Origin: Thermoleophilia bacterium
Lineage (GTDB): Bacteria; Actinomycetota; Thermoleophilia; Miltoncostaeales; Miltoncostaeaceae
Length of the DNA: 39,798 nt
Direction of reading: 5' to 3'
Assembly: GCA_025455865.1 (NCBI GenBank)
Contig: JALOLS010000008.1
Span: 1 to 39,798 of the forward strand
The position numbers were made by a program, and so were the translations under genes. Positions 30,120 through 39,364 of this stretch are shown here, one piece after another. Under the pieces are notes generated by a model. It did not search any database and had not been told where the DNA came from. It worked only from the letters and a program-made list of their open reading frames with translations. How positions within the stretch are numbered: position 1 is the stretch's first letter; every line of letters starts with the position of its first letter.

Positions 30120-33083
30120 ATGCCCCCGCTGCCCCCGCATCACGTGCCCCGTCCGCGGCTCGTCTCCCGGCTCGCCGGCCGGCGGGTGTCCACGGTCGTC
30201 GCCGGCGGCGGGTACGGCAAGAGCAGCCTCGCCCGCGAGGCGGCGGCGGCGATCGGCGCGGCCGAGGTCACCGCCGCCCTCGCCGGTCCGCACGCCGGCC
30301 CCGACGCGGTCGCCGCCGCCCTGCGCCGCGGCGCGGGACGCGCCGGGCTCTCGGCCGTGGCGGCCGCCCTGGACGAGGCCCCGCCGCCCGAGCGGCTGGC
30401 CGCCCTGGTCGAGGCGCTCGCCCGGCTGCCCGACCCCGTCGTCCTCGTGGTCGACGACGTCCAGGTCGCCACCGGGCCCGCGGCGGAGTGGATCGCCGCG
30501 CTCGCCGCCGGCCTCCCGGCGCCGCACCGGGTGCTGGTGCTCGGCCGGCGCCTGCCGCCCGCCCTGGCCCCGGCCGGGCCGCCCCTGGGCCCCGGGGACC
30601 TCGCCCTGAGCGCCGAGGAGGTGGCCGCGGTGCTCCGGGCGGCGGGCGGGGCCGCGAGCCCGGCCCGTGCCGCCGAGGTGCACCGGCTGACCGGCGGCTG
30701 GCCCGCCGCGGTGGTGCTGGCCGCCCGGCGGGGCGCACCGGCCGCGGACGGCTTCCCGGCGCTGGTCGACGCCCTCCTCGCCGGCCTCGGGCCGGTGCTC
30801 GGCGGGCACGCGGTGGCGCTCGGGCACCTGCCGATGCTCGACGCCGCGCTCATCGGCCTGCTGGCCGGGCCGGACGCCGCCGGGCGCCTGGAGGACGGCG
30901 GGCTGCCCCTCACCCCCGGCACCGGTGGGTGGCTCGAGCTCCCGGCGCCGTTGCGGGAGGACCTCGCCCGCCGCGCGCCGGCCGACGCTGCGGTGCTCGG
31001 GGTCGCCGCCGCCCACTACGCCCGCCGCGGGGAGGCCGCGGCCGCCGTGGCGCTGCTGGCCGGCGCCGCCCGGCCGGCGGACCTGGCCGGGCTGCTCGCC
31101 GCGCTGGACTGGCGGGCGCTCGACGCGCTCTCCACCGGGGAGATCCTGGCGGCCCTGGCCCTCGTCCCCGACGCCGCCCTCGCCGGCGACGCCACCGCGC
31201 TGGTCCAGGCCGCCCGGGTGGCCGAGGCGCGGACCCAGCTCGAGGTGCGCGAGCGGCTGCTCGGGCGGGCGGCCGGGGTGACCGGGGCCGGCGGGCCGGC
31301 CGAGGTGGCGCGGGCGGTGGCCGCCGAGACGGCGCTGGACCACGCGCGCGACGGTCGGGCGCACGAGGCCGAGCAGGCCGCCCGCGCCGTGCTCGGCGAC
31401 GCGGGGCCCGGCGAGGGCGTCACCCGCGGCCGGGCCCTGCTCGCCCTGGGGCGGGCCGCGGCGTTCCGCGGGGACCCCGCCTCGCTCTCCGCGGCCGAGG
31501 ACCACTACGCGGAGGCCGCCGCGACCCTGCAGGCGATGGGCCAGGCCGAGTGGCGCGCGGCGGCGCTCACCGGCCTGGGCTACGGGGTCTCGTTCGCCCG
31601 CGGCGACCTCGACCGCGGCGTCGCGCACCTGCGCGAGGCCCTCGGCGCGCTCCCCCGGGCCGGCCGCCACCGGGCCGCGCTCGCCACCTTCCTCGCCGAG
31701 GCCCTCACCGCCGTCGGCCGCCTGGACGAGGCCGAGGCGCTCCTGGCCGAGGCGGCCGAGACCGGCCGCGACATCGGCGACCACCGCATCCGGGCCTACG
31801 CCGCGTGGGAGGCGGCGCGGGTCGCCGCGGTGCGCGGGGACGCCGCCGGGGTGGCCCGGCGGCTGCGGGAGGCCGAGCGGCACGCCAGCGACTGGTTCGG
31901 GCACCCGACCGGTGTCGAGTTCCTCGCCGACGGCGCGCAGATGCTGGCTCGGGCGGGCGACGAGGCCGGGGCGCGGGCCTGGGCGGCCCGGGCCGTGGAG
32001 CGGGCCGCCGCCGCGGGCCATCCCGAGATCGCCTGGCCCGCGGAGGGTGCGGTCGAGGCGCGCTTCGGCGATCCCCGGCGGGCGGAGGAGGTGCTCGCCG
32101 CCTACGCCGCCTCACCCCAGCAGCCCCCGCGGGAGGAGTGGCGCACGCTGCTCCTGCGCGCGCACGCCGCGACGCGGCGGGGCGGGGAACGGGCGGCGGC
32201 GCTCGCCACGGACGCCTTCGAGGCCGCCGCGGCGCTCGGCCATCCGGAGCTGCCCGCGCTGCACGAGGCCGACATCGCGCCGGCGCTCGCCGAGCTGGCC
32301 GGGGCGGCCGGCTCGCGGGCGGCCCGGCGGGCCGGCGACCGCCCCCCGGACCTCGCCGTGACCGTGCTCGGCGGCTTCGCGGTGACCGCCGACGGTCGCC
32401 CGGCCGACCCGCCCCCGGGCCGCACCGCGACCCTGGTGAAGCTCCTGGCCGTGCGCGCCGGGCCGGTGGCGGTCGACGAGGCGGTCGAGGCGCTCTGGCC
32501 CGGGGTCGACCCGGTCACCGGCCGGGCCCGGCTGCGCAACCTGCTGAACCGCATCAGGGCCCGGTGCGGGGGCCTGGTGGTGCGCCGCGGCGACGAGGCG
32601 CTCGCCCTGGCGCCCGGCGTGCGCGTGGACGCCTCGGAGTTCACGGCCGCCGCCGATGCCGCCCTCGCGGCCGCGGCCCCCGAGCGGGAGGGCCTCGCCC
32701 GCCTTGCCCTCTCGCGCCACCGCGGCGAGCTCCTGCCCGCCGATCCCTACGCGGAGTGGGCCGCGGCGCCCCGCGAGCGCCTCCGCCGCCGGCACCTCGA
32801 CCTGGTCGACATGCTCGCCGCCGGCGCCCGGGAGCGCGGCGACCTGGACGAGGCGGTCCGCCTGCTGGACGCGGGCATCGCGGCCGAGCCGATGGACGAC
32901 GGACGGCTGGTGGCCTGCGCCGAGCTCATGCTCGCGCTCGGGCGCCGCGGCGGCGCGGGCGGCCTGGCGCGCCGCGCGCGCGACATCCGCGGGGCCCTCG
33001 GCCTCCCGCCGACCGCCCGGCTCGAGCGCCTGCTGGCCGCCTCCGGGCCGGGCGGGGCGGCACCCGGGTCGGTGGGGCCCTGA
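30120..33083 (+). CDS. large STAND-type regulator with C-terminal SARP domain
   Basis: A 987-residue transcriptional regulator. The N-terminus has a MalT-like opening (HHVPRPRLVSRLAGRRVSTVVAGG), Walker A GGGYGKSS (29-36) and Walker B VLVVDDVQ (108-115). A long helical, TPR-like region follows (about 330-740). From about residue 744 comes an OmpR-type winged helix: DLAVTVLGGFAVTADGRPADPPPGRTATLVKLLAVR, VDEAVEALWPGVDP, RLRNLLNRIRA, then a BTAD domain to about 960. This is a SARP with its DNA-binding part at the C-terminus behind an ATPase switch, as in some mycobacterial and streptomycete regulators. It likely activates promoters with 11-base direct repeats. The ATG has GGAAGG just upstream. 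Confidence 0.9.
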   Translation: MPPLPPHHVPRPRLVSRLAGRRVSTVVAGGGYGKSSLAREAAAAIGAAEVTAALAGPHAGPDAVAAALRRGAGRAGLSAVAAALDEAPPPERLAALVEALARLPDPVVLVVDDVQVATGPAAEWIAALAAGLPAPHRVLVLGRRLPPALAPAGPPLGPGDLALSAEEVAAVLRAAGGAASPARAAEVHRLTGGWPAAVVLAARRGAPAADGFPALVDALLAGLGPVLGGHAVALGHLPMLDAALIGLLAGPDAAGRLEDGGLPLTPGTGGWLELPAPLREDLARRAPADAAVLGVAAAHYARRGEAAAAVALLAGAARPADLAGLLAALDWRALDALSTGEILAALALVPDAALAGDATALVQAARVAEARTQLEVRERLLGRAAGVTGAGGPAEVARAVAAETALDHARDGRAHEAEQAARAVLGDAGPGEGVTRGRALLALGRAAAFRGDPASLSAAEDHYAEAAATLQAMGQAEWRAAALTGLGYGVSFARGDLDRGVAHLREALGALPRAGRHRAALATFLAEALTAVGRLDEAEALLAEAAETGRDIGDHRIRAYAAWEAARVAAVRGDAAGVARRLREAERHASDWFGHPTGVEFLADGAQMLARAGDEAGARAWAARAVERAAAAGHPEIAWPAEGAVEARFGDPRRAEEVLAAYAASPQQPPREEWRTLLLRAHAATRRGGERAAALATDAFEAAAALGHPELPALHEADIAPALAELAGAAGSRAARRAGDRPPDLAVTVLGGFAVTADGRPADPPPGRTATLVKLLAVRAGPVAVDEAVEALWPGVDPVTGRARLRNLLNRIRARCGGLVVRRGDEALALAPGVRVDASEFTAAADAALAAAAPEREGLARLALSRHRGELLPADPYAEWAAAPRERLRRRHLDLVDMLAAGARERGDLDEAVRLLDAGIAAEPMDDGRLVACAELMLALGRRGGAGGLARRARDIRGALGLPPTARLERLLAASGPGGAAPGSVGP

Positions 33084-35872: not shown

Positions 35873-36472
35873 TCACCGGGTCGAGCGGTCGACCTCGACG
35901 ATCCGCCCGTCGCGGTCGGCGCGCACCGTCAGCCGCTCGCGCACGCCGGACCTGCTGACGCTCAGCACCGGCCCCCGGACCCCGACGCCGAGCGAGACGG
36001 AGCCGGTGACCCCGCCCTCCAGCGGGATCCGCTCGGCCCGCCGCACCAGCCCCCGGAACACGCCCGGGCGCAGGGCCGACAGGGGGACGGTCTGCCAGGC
36101 GAGGTCGCGCGGGTCGCGCACGCCGTAGGGCTCCGGGCCGGTGAACGCCCCGTCCTGCCAGTCGTAGCGGTCCAGGTTCCGGCGCACGCGCGGATCCTGG
36201 ACCACCACCACGACCCACCGCGGGCTGGCCGACACGCCGTAGATGCGCGGGTCGCCCCCGAGCTGCCGCCGGAGCGTCCCGAGCACCGCGGCGATCCCCG
36301 GGCGCTCCCAGGTGGGCGCGGCCGGCACCTCGGCGGTGCCGGTGCGCGGGGCCTCGACCGGCTGCGTGCGCGGGCGCTCGCCGGTCGTGGTCGTGGTCGT
36401 ACCGCCACCCCCGCAGCCGGCGGCGGCCAGCACGAGGACGGTGAGGAGCGCGGGGGAGGTCCGGCCGGCCAT
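35873..36472 (-). CDS. lipoprotein of unknown function
   Basis: A 199-residue lipoprotein. The signal sequence (AGRTSPALLTVLVLAAAGC) ends in the lipobox AAGC. A Thr/Pro/Arg-rich linker (GGGGTTTTTTGERPRTQP) of about 40 residues precedes a compact domain from about residue 55: WERPGIAAVLGTLRRQLGG, IYGVSASPRWVVVVVQDP, and a strand-rich end GPVLSVSRSGVRERLTVRADRDGRIVEVDRSTR. The protein should sit on the outer face of the membrane. The ATG at 36472 is supported by TAGCCT ending 8 bases upstream. No family recognised. Confidence 0.8.
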   Translation of the reverse strand: MAGRTSPALLTVLVLAAAGCGGGGTTTTTTGERPRTQPVEAPRTGTAEVPAAPTWERPGIAAVLGTLRRQLGGDPRIYGVSASPRWVVVVVQDPRVRRNLDRYDWQDGAFTGPEPYGVRDPRDLAWQTVPLSALRPGVFRGLVRRAERIPLEGGVTGSVSLGVGVRGPVLSVSRSGVRERLTVRADRDGRIVEVDRSTR

Positions 36473-36480
36473 GGCGAACG

Positions 36481-36486
36481 AGGCTA
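36481..36486 (-). promoter_or_regulatory. -10 element for the lipoprotein gene at 35873 (leaderless)
   Basis: The minus strand reads TAGCCT with 8 bases to the ATG at 36472 and no Shine-Dalgarno. Confidence 0.45.
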
Positions 36487-36495
36487 TCCGAGCGC

Positions 36496-36526
36496 CCCGT
36501 GGGACACCGGTGGGACGCCGGCCGGG
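36496..36526 (+). promoter_or_regulatory. tandem 11-base direct repeat upstream of the secreted-protein gene (copy 1)
   Basis: Heptamer GTGGGAC occurs twice (36499-36505 and 36510-36516) with an 11-base period. The 31-base block matches that at 39334-39364 (minus strand) at 29 of 31 positions. It is followed by TTGCAT (36527-36532), a -10-like hexamer 10 bases after the second heptamer. Confidence 0.6.
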
Positions 36527-36565
36527 TTGCATGGCCCACGCGCACCCGCCCGAAGGAGCCAGGAC

Positions 36566-37714
36566 ATGTCGCGCCCCGTCTCACCCGCCCGCGTCGCCGC
36601 CCTCGTGGCCGTCGCCGCCGGGCTCGCCGCCGCGGCGCCGGCGGCGGCCGTCCCGTTCGGCGCGAACCTGAGCGTGGCGCCGAACATCAGCCCCACCTGC
36701 CCGCTCGGGGCGCCGTTCCCGGACAACATCCCGGGCGCATGGCCGGGCTCCGCCGGCTTCGCAAGCTGCACCTGGACCCACGGCGACGCCACGCCGAACG
36801 GCCAGGGCCTCTTCCCGCCGTCCAGCGGCGTCATCACCCAGGTGCGCGTGCGGGTGGGACCGGTGGTGGGGCCCATGCAGCCGGTCATCCTGCGCTGGCT
36901 GGTGCAGAACGCCCGCAACGACGGCCAGCCGAACCGCGTCTGCTGCTCCCTGCAGGCGCTGGGCCCGGTGTTCACTCCGCAGCCGAACGCGGTGACGACC
37001 GTGAACGTCAACCTCCCGGTCACCATCGAGACGCTCCCCGGCCCCGACGAGACCCGCGCCGCGGCCTTCGACCAGCTCGCGCTCTCGGTGCTCGACGGCA
37101 CCACGCCGGTGCCGCTCTTCGACACCGGGGTGCACGGCGGGGCCACCCAGCCGATCTCGCCGGTCTTCAACAACGCGTTCTTCCCGGCCTACTCGGAGCC
37201 CACGGTGGCCCCGCGGGCGTCCGGCGGCGGGTCGGCGGTCGGCGGCTACATCGTGATGATGCAGGGTGAGCTGGTGCCCGCGGGCGGGGCGTCGCCCGGG
37301 GCCGGCGGGGCCACCCCGGGCGCGACCCCGGGCCCCGGCCCGGGCGCCGGGCCGGGTGCGGCCCCGGCGCCGGTGGCGCCCGCCGTCCCGGCCCCCGGGC
37401 TGCCGGTGGTGGCGGTGCCGGTGCGGGGCGACGTCGCCCCGGTGGTGGTGGCCTGCGGCGGGAGCGCCGAGTGCGTGGGCCGGGTGCTGCTGGCCGCGCG
37501 CCGGCCGGTCGCCGCCCGGGCCCGGGCGGCCCGGAGCGTGGTCTACGGGCAGGCGTCCTTCCGCATCGGCGCCGGGAAGCGCGCGGCCGTGCGGGTGCGC
37601 CTCACGGCCGCCGGCCGGGCGCTCGTCGCGCGCCGCCGCACGGCCCCGGTGTGGGCCCAGGTGTCGGTGAACGGGGCCGCGCCGGTGGTGCGCCGGCTCA
37701 CGCTCCGCCGGTGA
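36566..37714 (+). CDS. large secreted protein with Gly/Pro-rich linker
   Basis: A 382-residue exported protein. The signal peptide (VSPARVAALVAVAAGLAAAAPAAAVP) is followed by a beta-rich domain with four spaced cysteines (PTCPLG, ASCTW, CCSLQ) that may form disulfides, up to about residue 225. Then comes a Gly/Pro/Ala linker (about 235-275) and a C-terminal domain with RVRLTAAGRALVARR, a pattern common in surface proteins of Thermoleophilia. It is therefore probably a cell-surface or extracellular protein. The ATG at 36566 follows AAGGAGCC. Upstream lies the tandem repeat copy 1, so it may be under SARP-type control. No enzymatic motif seen. Confidence 0.82.
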   Translation: MSRPVSPARVAALVAVAAGLAAAAPAAAVPFGANLSVAPNISPTCPLGAPFPDNIPGAWPGSAGFASCTWTHGDATPNGQGLFPPSSGVITQVRVRVGPVVGPMQPVILRWLVQNARNDGQPNRVCCSLQALGPVFTPQPNAVTTVNVNLPVTIETLPGPDETRAAAFDQLALSVLDGTTPVPLFDTGVHGGATQPISPVFNNAFFPAYSEPTVAPRASGGGSAVGGYIVMMQGELVPAGGASPGAGGATPGATPGPGPGAGPGAAPAPVAPAVPAPGLPVVAVPVRGDVAPVVVACGGSAECVGRVLLAARRPVAARARAARSVVYGQASFRIGAGKRAAVRVRLTAAGRALVARRRTAPVWAQVSVNGAAPVVRRLTLRR

Positions 37715-37722
37715 GCCGGGGG

Positions 37723-37728
37723 TAGCCT
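37723..37728 (+). promoter_or_regulatory. -10 element for the GST gene (leaderless)
   Basis: TAGCCT lies 6 bases before the ATG at 37735, with no Shine-Dalgarno. Confidence 0.5.
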
Positions 37729-37734
37729 CCCGGC

Positions 37735-38361
37735 ATGGCGCTCGTCCTCTATGACAACCCGGTCTCCTCCAACGCGCTCAAGGTGCGCTTCCTGCTCGCC
37801 GAGCTCGGCGTGGCCCACGAGCGCGTGGAGGTGCCGATGGCCCGTCCGCGGCCGGACTGGTACCTGGCGCTGAACCCGCTCGGCGGCATCCCCGCGCTCC
37901 GCGACGGCGACATGGTGCTGGCCGAGTCGGCGGCGATCCTGCGCTACCTGGTCGCCCGGGAGGGCGCCTGGCACCTGTACCCCCCAGACCCCCCGGCGCG
38001 GGCGCGCATCGACGAGTGGATCGACCGCTTCGTGCTCACCTTGCGACCGGCGCTCCGCCGGGTCGAGAACGAGGCGCTCGGATGGACGCCGGGCGGCGGC
38101 TTCGGGTCCCGACCACCCGACCACGCGGCGGCGGTGCGCGTGGCGGGCGAGGTGGCGCCGGTGCTCGCGGTGTTCGACGCGCTGCTGGCCGGCCCGCTCG
38201 CGCTCGGGCCGGATCTCACCCTCGCCGACGTGGTGGCCGCCCCGCCGCTCTTCCGCACCACGGTGACCGGGATGGACCTCGCGCCGTTCCCGCGCCTTCG
38301 CGCCTGGCGTGACGCGCTCGTCGGGCGTCCGGCGTTCCGGGCCGCCGGTCCCGTGCGCTGA
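37735..38361 (+). CDS. glutathione S-transferase family protein
   Basis: A 208-residue GST-fold protein. The thioredoxin-like N-terminal half has DNPVSSNALKVRFLLAELG with Ser/Asn in the active site, LNPLGGIPALRDG with the cis-Pro, and the family ESAAILRYLV glutathione-contact motif near residue 63. The helical C-terminal half ends LADVVAAPPLFR...FPRLRAWRDALVGRPAF. Actinobacteria lack glutathione in most cases, so it may use mycothiol or act on another thiol; the sequence cannot tell. The stop overlaps the first codon of the alpha/beta hydrolase gene, so both are made together. Confidence 0.92.
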   Translation: MALVLYDNPVSSNALKVRFLLAELGVAHERVEVPMARPRPDWYLALNPLGGIPALRDGDMVLAESAAILRYLVAREGAWHLYPPDPPARARIDEWIDRFVLTLRPALRRVENEALGWTPGGGFGSRPPDHAAAVRVAGEVAPVLAVFDALLAGPLALGPDLTLADVVAAPPLFRTTVTGMDLAPFPRLRAWRDALVGRPAFRAAGPVR

Positions 38362-39155
38362 GCGCCTTCACGGCGGTCCACCGGGGCGGGGAGGGCCCGC
38401 CCCTGGTCCTCATCCACGGCTTCACCGACACCTGGCGCACCTGGGAGCTGGTCCTGCCCACGCTGGAGCGCCGTCACGAGGTCCTCGCGCCGACCCTGCC
38501 CGGCCACGCCGGCGGACCTTCGCTCGACCGCCCGCCCACCGCGCGCACGATGGCCGACGGGGTCGAGCGGGCCATGGACGCGGCGGGCATCGGCCTGGCC
38601 GATCTCGCCGGCAACTCGCTGGGCGGCCATGTGGCCCTGCAGCTGGCCGCCCGCGGCCGGGCCCGGTCGGTGGTCGCCCTCGCGCCCGCCGGCGGGTGGG
38701 CGGCCGACGACCCGCTCCCGGCGGGGCTCACCGAGCACTTCCTGGCCATGCGCGACCAGGCCCGGAACGCCGCGCCGCAGGCGCCGTCGCTCCTGGCGAC
38801 GCCCGAGGGCCGGCGGATGGCCACGCGCGCCGTCTGCGAGCGCTCCGACCACATCCCGGCCGGGCTCATCATCCACCAGATGCTCGGCATCGCCGCCTGC
38901 CCGGAGCTGGAGCGGCTCACCCGGCTGGCCGAGTCGGCGCCCTGGACGCTCGACGCCGCGCTCGTCACCTGCCCGGTCCGCGTGGTGTGGGGGGCGGCCG
39001 ACCGGGTGCTCCCCTGGCCCCGGGCTGCGGTGCGCCACCGGACCGAGTGGCTCCCCCAGGCCGACTGGGTGGTGCTCGACGGCGTGGGCCACTGCCCCCA
39101 GCTCGACGCGCCGGCCGAGACCGCCGACCTCATCCTGGGCTGGACCGTGGCCTGA
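38358..39155 (+). CDS. alpha/beta hydrolase, probable CTG start
   Basis: A 265-residue alpha/beta hydrolase. The oxyanion region is LVLIHGFTDTWRTWELV near residues 17-33, the nucleophile elbow GNSLGGH near residue 80, the acid Asp in VVWGAADRVLPW, and the His in GVGHCPQLDAP. No ATG, GTG or TTG is in frame between the upstream stop at 38310 and residue 1; the first such codon is an ATG at 38550, which would remove the oxyanion strand. A CTG at 38358 overlaps the GST stop by 4 bases (CTGA), exactly like ATGA/GTGA overlaps elsewhere here, so I place the start there. The substrate is unknown. Its end overlaps the minus-strand gene at 39130. Confidence 0.82.
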   Translation: MSAFTAVHRGGEGPPLVLIHGFTDTWRTWELVLPTLERRHEVLAPTLPGHAGGPSLDRPPTARTMADGVERAMDAAGIGLADLAGNSLGGHVALQLAARGRARSVVALAPAGGWAADDPLPAGLTEHFLAMRDQARNAAPQAPSLLATPEGRRMATRAVCERSDHIPAGLIIHQMLGIAACPELERLTRLAESAPWTLDAALVTCPVRVVWGAADRVLPWPRAAVRHRTEWLPQADWVVLDGVGHCPQLDAPAETADLILGWTVA

Positions 39156-39321
39156 CCTCGTCGTCCGCCGGGGGCGCCGCCGCCGCGGCGAGGAACGCCA
39201 GGAGCTCCTCGGCGTCGCGGATGGTCGCGGTCTCGCCGGTGGCGATCAGCTCCACCTGGCCGGCCAGGCGCCCCACCCGCACGGCGGCGGGGGCGAGGCG
39301 CAGGATCACCGACACGGTCAT
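39130..39321 (-). CDS. small protein of unknown function
   Basis: A 63-residue protein from the ATG at 39321. It starts MTVSVILRLAPAAVRVGRLAGQVELIATGETATIRDAEELLAFL, a beta-strand pair followed by a helix, and ends in an acidic/Ala-rich tail. No signal peptide or metal motif. It has the -10-like CACGAT 6 bases upstream of the ATG, and the tandem repeat copy 2 immediately behind that. The last 26 bases overlap the convergent hydrolase gene. No family recognised; its promoter is its most notable feature. Confidence 0.6.
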   Translation of the reverse strand: MTVSVILRLAPAAVRVGRLAGQVELIATGETATIRDAEELLAFLAAAAAPPADDEVRPRSSPG

Positions 39322-39333
39322 GCGGGGATCGTG

Positions 39334-39364
39334 CCCGGCGGGCGTCCCACCGGCGTCCCACGGG
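39334..39364 (-). promoter_or_regulatory. tandem 11-base direct repeat upstream of the small gene at 39130 (copy 2)
   Basis: On the minus strand the heptamer GTGGGAC occurs at 39361-39355 and 39350-39344, an 11-base period. The second copy is followed after 10 bases by CACGAT (39333-39328), and then 6 bases to the ATG at 39321. It matches copy 1 at 36496-36526. Confidence 0.6.

Follow-up and report, generated by a model that had tools for sequence, protein, structure and literature searches.

Described Systems and the Present Locus

To our knowledge, members of the Streptomyces antibiotic regulatory protein (SARP) family are known almost exclusively as switches of antibiotic clusters in Streptomyces. 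The closest described counterpart of the system considered here is AfsR of Streptomyces coelicolor, which acts at the afsS promoter. AfsR binds as a side-by-side dimer to two 11-bp repeats (-40 to -30 and -29 to -19), contacting each repeat at its first 8 bp, and it substitutes for a poor -35 region beside a weak -10 hexamer, CACTGT (PMC10936776). In large SARPs the SARP domain is N-terminal and is followed by an NB-ARC/NOD domain and tetratricopeptide repeats (TPRs) (PMC10972967). Here we report on a 31-base element that is shared by two genes on opposite strands in a 39,798-nucleotide stretch of DNA from a Thermoleophilia bacterium (contig JALOLS010000008.1; the whole stretch is referred to as the window), together with a SARP gene present in the same stretch. 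Based upon sequence comparisons, it is quite probable that a SARP subfamily, characterized by ATPase and TPR regions and a C-terminal SARP domain, putatively binds to the 11-bp repeats that cover the -35 region, and that it activates genes for secreted proteins.

The present system resembles AfsR-afsS in that the regulator is a large SARP containing TPRs and a domain of the ATPase type, the promoter combines a weak -10 with two 11-bp repeats that overlap the -35 region, and AfsR chains are the best structural matches of the window SARP-domain model. A small target protein beside the regulator also recalls afsS, although only loosely. The two systems differ in that the SARP domain is N-terminal in AfsR but C-terminal here, the AfsR repeat is CGTT(T/C)ATCG in place of GTGGGACG, and the targets here are secreted proteins and not an antibiotic regulator (PMC10936776). 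The SARP-LAL regulators PimR, SanG, and PolR share with the present system heptameric repeats with 4-nt spacers and a large ATP-binding part, whereas their heptamer is CGGCAAG, their SARP domain is N-terminal, their sites are located inside antibiotic clusters, and in the case of PimR the operator lies clear of the -35 box (PMC5930380). The ActII-ORF4/DnrI regulators likewise combine a DNA-binding plus BTAD module with direct repeats near the -10, but these are small proteins of antibiotic clusters, in contrast to the 987 aa of the window protein, and the neighbourhoods of the sites that were read showed no biosynthetic cluster. EmbR from Mycobacterium tuberculosis (2FEZ) is also a SARP-fold regulator outside antibiotic synthesis, but it contains an FHA domain and no ATPase or TPR part. 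Lastly, the PHO boxes bound by PhoP-type response regulators are 11-bp direct repeats over the -35 region, but they have a different heptamer (GTTCACC) and no link to the SARP.

The Repeated Element and Its Occurrence in the Genome

An earlier note on this DNA had described two copies of the element, identical at 29 of 31 positions, in each of which the heptamer GTGGGAC occurs twice with an 11-base period. Re-measurement gave the same identity, period, and coordinates (Table 1), and in both copies the hexamer (TTGCAT or CACGAT) starts exactly 10 nt past the second heptamer. SARP operators consist of direct heptamers with an 11-bp period, as observed here, and their 3' repeat lies about 8 bp from the -10 element; the corresponding distance in this case is 10 nt from the heptamer, or 9 nt from the 8-bp core GTGGGACG. 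This core recurs at 11 bp, and its position 8 is a G in 10/11 first and 11/11 second repeats.

Table 1. Positions of the sites, genes, and protein domains discussed in the text.
Feature	Position	Strand	Remarks
Site 1, GTGGGAC-ACCG-GTGGGAC	36499..36516	+	Inside shared 31-base element 36496-36526
-10-like hexamer of site 1, TTGCAT	36527..36532	+	Starts 10 nt past second heptamer
Site 2, GTGGGAC-GCCG-GTGGGAC	39344..39361	-	Inside shared 31-base element 39334-39364
-10-like hexamer of site 2, CACGAT	39328..39333	-	10 nt past second heptamer, 6 nt ahead of start codon
Target 1, 382-aa predicted secreted protein	36566..37714	+	Signal-peptide-like N-terminus; no match in Pfam/NCBIfam
Target 2, 63-aa small protein	39130..39321	-	Model beta-helix-beta-beta-helix; family with five members identified
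Small-protein family, about 63-77 aa	39130-39321; L036:8983-9174; L113:10983-11216; L138:14587-14790; L137:3493-3693		
Candidate cognate regulator, 987-aa SARP	30120..33083	+	N-terminal ATPase (AAA_16-like), TPR region, C-terminal SARP domain
OmpR-type winged-helix DNA-binding domain of SARP	32355..32624	+	Recognition helix GRARLRNLLNRIR
BTAD domain of SARP	32625..33032	+	Pfam PF03704, 22.3 bits, cut-off 22.1

In the host genome (G000, a draft assembly of 3.16 Mb with 22% A+T), the exact pattern GTGGGAC-N4-GTGGGAC is present five times and its reversed control is absent, while 0.09-0.10 occurrences are expected, whether the estimate is based upon base composition, the heptamer frequency observed, or a first-order Markov model (Poisson P ~5e-8). 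This enrichment is lost when two mismatches are allowed (31 matches versus 58 in the control), which indicates that the consensus is tight. A genome-wide search for this repeat together with a -10 had been proposed in the earlier note, and it revealed that all five of the exact sites precede a gene. The statement that two genes share the element is correct for these genes, but the sites in this genome number at least six. In the hexamers of the five exact sites, position 6 is invariably T and position 2 is A or T (5/5 in each case), and the T at position 6 is retained in 11/11 exact promoter sites when a second genome (G237, discussed below) is included. Beyond the operator and the -10, the sequence similarity among the sites ends. 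We regard the twin repeat as a real promoter-control site.

The first genes behind the five exact sites encode four predicted secreted proteins and one 63-aa protein; the secreted-protein targets outside the window are located on contigs C2, C56, and C66. Three of these four proteins were called secreted by a simple heuristic, for which the background rate of such calls is ~16%, and the C56 product was assigned by eye based upon a signal-like segment starting at an internal Met. In contrast to Streptomyces antibiotic regulation, where the targets belong to or govern secondary-metabolite clusters, the targets here are secreted proteins and a 63-aa protein. Of the matches with two mismatches, 30 loci were read, and the promoter layout was observed only on contig C60 (L036:8942-8975), the others either lacking this layout or lying within coding sequence. 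The C60 site consists of the heptamers GTGGGAC and ATTGGAC, thus mixing two box types, and its operon encodes two proteins, one being a paralogue (42%) of the 63-aa protein and the other a secreted protein that is 70-89% identical to the C56 product across two stretches. Because two independent paralogue families are both found behind the box, C60 is a credible sixth member of this group. No box was found at the homologues of the C60 secreted protein in the genome G003.

The SARP Subfamily and Its Association with the Sites

The presence of a SARP gene in the window, as noted earlier, was confirmed: its product contains a SARP-type module, viz. an OmpR-type winged helix followed by a BTAD domain, as is required of a member of this family. 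Its assignment to the ActII-ORF4/DnrI type could not be upheld, as the protein has an N-terminal ATPase (residues 20-140), TPRs (~490-550), and a C-terminal SARP domain (BTAD, 836-971). This order is the reverse of that in the described large SARPs, and it is thus a SARP-domain protein but not of the AfsR type. An AlphaFold2 model of the C-terminal part has a predicted local distance difference test (pLDDT) score of 78, and its DNA-binding/BTAD portion is most similar in Foldseek to EmbR and to AfsR as seen in the promoter complex (8k60, 8hvr), with E values of 4e-6 to 1e-4. By sequence, only EmbR (2FEZ) was a convincing match of the SARP domain in the PDB (E 3e-5, over the DNA-binding domain), and in a profile comparison this match spans the DNA-binding plus BTAD domains. 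A second paralogue, 46% identical to the window SARP, is present in the same genome on contig C29 (L134:7165-10143), and either of the two copies may be the one acting on the window sites. The recognition helix of the subfamily, GR-x-RLRN-x-L-(N/S)-R-(L/I)-R with variants, is unlike that of other BTAD proteins from the same genomes.

The occurrence of the sites was surveyed in 60 relatives and then in 399 genomes of the class. Besides the host, several exact sites were present only in G237, a Solirubrobacterales metagenome-assembled genome (MAG; clean270, DAHUYL01) from a different family. It contains six exact sites, all with the spacer GCTC and followed by N10-TA(G/C)(G/C)GT (TANNNT type), and with a start codon within 8 nt at 4/6 of them. 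The flanks of these sites are unrelated except for one near-identical pair at contig ends, which may represent a single duplicated locus. Where they can be read, the targets in G237 are secreted proteins of large size that contain Vgb_lyase, InlB-B-repeat, TIG or Ig-like domains. A collagen-like frame interrupted by a stop follows one of the sites, and one target operon ends with a homologue of the 63-aa protein. Single exact matches in seven other genomes, which show no fitting hexamer or gene layout, were judged to be due to chance.

Full-length copies of the SARP number two in G000 and four in G237 (39-42% identity over the whole length). Among 101 genomes of the G237 family, only G237 contains such copies, and the other two relatives detected in them (in G134 and G253) are partial or broken; a generic scan for 11-bp repeats near these two found nothing. 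Relatives of the window SARP at E<=1e-10 were not found in 36 same-family genomes, and no carrier was found among the plasmids searched. A first scan of GTDB contigs with a single-protein query gave no match, and a scan with six full-length proteins identified two more MAGs with the SARP, represented by the loci L137 (Solirubrobacterales) and L139 (Acidimicrobiia, another class).

In three contigs, L137, L138 (contig C107 of G237), and L139, a repeat with the same layout comes immediately after the SARP gene. The distance from the SARP stop codon to GTGGGACGCCCGGGGGAC-N10-TACCTT is 29 nt in L139, where a secreted protein comes next. In L137 and L138, the stop codon is overlapped by GTTTAACGCTCGTTGGAC-N10-TAG(G/C)GT, and the next gene encodes a protein of the 63-aa type in L137 and a large secreted protein in L138. 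One more site in L138, GTTGAACGTTCATTGGAC-N10-TACGGT, is ahead of another small-protein gene. When a degenerate heptamer pair was counted in 382 kb of loci, 16 pairs were found at period 11, all of them (16/16) with a hexamer at N10, whereas the remaining periods between 8 and 15 gave 0-5 pairs and the reversed control gave none. The connection between the SARP and the sites, which the earlier note had inferred, has thus gained comparative support: where both were tested, the multi-site genomes are those with intact SARPs, and the SARP-then-repeat order is found in three contigs.

Several observations weigh against this interpretation. The window SARP is not adjacent to the sites, being separated by 3.4 kb from site 1 and by 6.3 kb from site 2. 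The heptamer in L137 and L138 has diverged (GTTTAAC/GTTGGAC), and hence the adjacency backs the subfamily more than it does the exact GTGGGAC specificity. The degenerate pattern was drawn up after the sites had been seen, so that the period count describes their tightness more than it serves as a separate test; neither the adjacency nor the counts of exact sites were selected in this way. The Pfam score for the BTAD domain is barely above the cut-off, and the TM-scores obtained with Foldseek are modest (0.40). BTAD proteins of other kinds occur commonly in the class, and it is therefore the SARP subfamily, and not BTAD proteins in general, that tracks the sites. Lastly, several of the compared genomes are MAGs and others are draft assemblies.

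Alternative Explanations and a Proposed Mechanism

The alternative that survives best is that the sites are controlled solely by the C29 paralogue and that the window SARP has some other target. The C29 recognition helix, SGRKRLRNALSRLR, is nearer to that of the C54 copies of G237 (SGRKRLRNVLNRLR), whose genome also uses GTGGGAC, the window helix being TGRARLRNLLNRIR. However, the window SARP is the copy located near two sites, whereas no site was found in 18 kb around C29, and we consider this possibility unlikely, if still deserving of attention.

A second alternative is that the repeats are bound by a response regulator of the OmpR/PhoB family from a two-component system, the SARP being a bystander. 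The DNA-binding fold of these regulators and, in principle, their site geometry are equal to those of SARPs, and it must be counted against our interpretation that they bind similar repeats at similar positions, with 11-bp direct repeats replacing the -35. AfsR and PhoP even recognise overlapping repeats at afsS (PMC10972967), and response regulators do occur in these genomes, one having been seen in L112. However, this explanation does not account for the SARP-before-site order in three contigs from two classes, nor for the match between multi-site genomes and intact SARPs, and no response regulator gene was seen beside the sites in the G000 neighbourhoods that were read; it appears improbable. 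The remaining proposal regards the 31-base element as a dispersed repeat or a chance similarity in a 78% GC genome, with no regulatory role. It can draw upon the lack of enrichment at two mismatches and the single matches in seven genomes without promoter layout, as chance would give, but it can be dismissed with near certainty in view of the five exact sites against 0.09 expected, the ending of similarity outside the operator and -10, the fixed T at hexamer position 6, and the finding of this layout again in other families and in a second class.

According to the SARP model that we favor, the element would be an operator-promoter in which two 11-bp units (GTGGGACG plus three loose bases) stand in for the -35 box, with a weak -10 hexamer 10 nt past the second heptamer. 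Both units would be bound side by side by a dimer of a large activator of the SARP type, a member of the window-gene subfamily that includes the C29 paralogue, the putative target sequence of the SARP domain being GTGGGACGCCGGTGGGACG. The bound SARP would then recruit RNA polymerase, as AfsR does at afsS, while the N-terminal ATPase and TPRs may sense a signal and gate this activity; we infer the binding, activation, and signal steps alike. By the usual numbering, the 11-bp unit would end 6 bp ahead of the -10 both here and in the AfsR system, and a hand alignment to the residues of the published work suggests that the Arg contacting the conserved T in AfsR is retained in the subfamily. The predicted regulon comprises at least six promoters in the host genome, for secreted or surface proteins and a cytoplasmic-looking partner of ~63 aa, and several of the mRNAs are probably leaderless.

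The same arrangement is found in four soil-type actinobacteria, ahead of genes for exported proteins and a small companion protein and beside one family of large SARPs, and this suggests that the SARP circuit serves the cell surface and not antibiotic production. A SARP subfamily of these little-studied, mostly uncultured organisms seems to govern a regulon made up of exported proteins. No report of GTGGGAC as a repeat for a bacterial regulator was found in the literature searched. A broader proposal, which we advance tentatively and with somewhat more doubt than belief, is that an undescribed SARP subfamily of reversed order (ATPase-TPR-SARP), boxes of the GTGGGAC type, a partner of ~65 aa, and large secreted proteins together form a patchily inherited module for surface-protein control in the class of the window and in Acidimicrobiia. 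The partner could be a co-regulator or an anti-activator, and the box and the recognition helix may have diverged together (GTGGGAC versus GTTTAAC/GTTGGAC). As the operator is legible from the DNA (repeat, N10, -10), the regulons of other members should be predictable, and the two heptamer types found beside two recognition-helix types render SARP DNA specificity testable.

The Small Protein and Other Target Genes

Each of the five members of the small-protein family is found under a site, in an operon after a site-driven gene, or directly after the SARP; sites precede proteins of the 63-aa type in both G000 and G237, and in L137 such a protein comes immediately after the SARP. The small protein beside the regulator is a concrete candidate partner. 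No relatives were found in Pfam/NCBIfam for the first three members, which were tested, or in the PDB. Its fold is predicted with confidence (pLDDT 86), and a Foldseek search with it gave no relative. At four small-protein promoters the start codon lies 6-7 nt past the hexamer, so the mRNAs of these genes, including that of the window 63-aa gene, are probably leaderless. The gene order after the small protein is equal in C60 and L137, though the secreted proteins in this position showed no similarity by BLAST.

Paralogues of the 382-aa target protein without a site are present in the same genome on contigs C141, C132, C58, C2, and C100 (L055, L058, L059, L060, and L063), and no box was found upstream of its paralogues in its own genome or in relatives. 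The box therefore does not track this protein family, and only one member is so controlled. When site 1 is read on the minus strand (36481-36514), a TAGCCT lies 10 nt beyond the repeat, and 8 nt further on is the ATG of a divergently oriented lipoprotein gene (35873-36472), which the box may also affect.

Some minor observations concern other loci. At a distance of 1.8 kb from the C2 site there is a LuxR-type LAL regulator, which was weighed as a candidate and rejected; it has a GerE domain, and nothing links it to the other sites. On contig C45 of G134 (L131:8178-10500), a SARP relative lacking the ATPase is divergent from a secreted protein that starts with a GTW-type domain, with no recognisable 11-bp repeat between the two genes. 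At the C60 site, a third GTGGGAC is present 24 nt past the first, where it overlaps the -10 region. Lastly, the C56 secreted gene (L034:14917-15631) runs off the end of its contig, and G000:C171:1-240 is 89% identical to the end of its C60 paralogue; the contigs C56 and C171 probably join.
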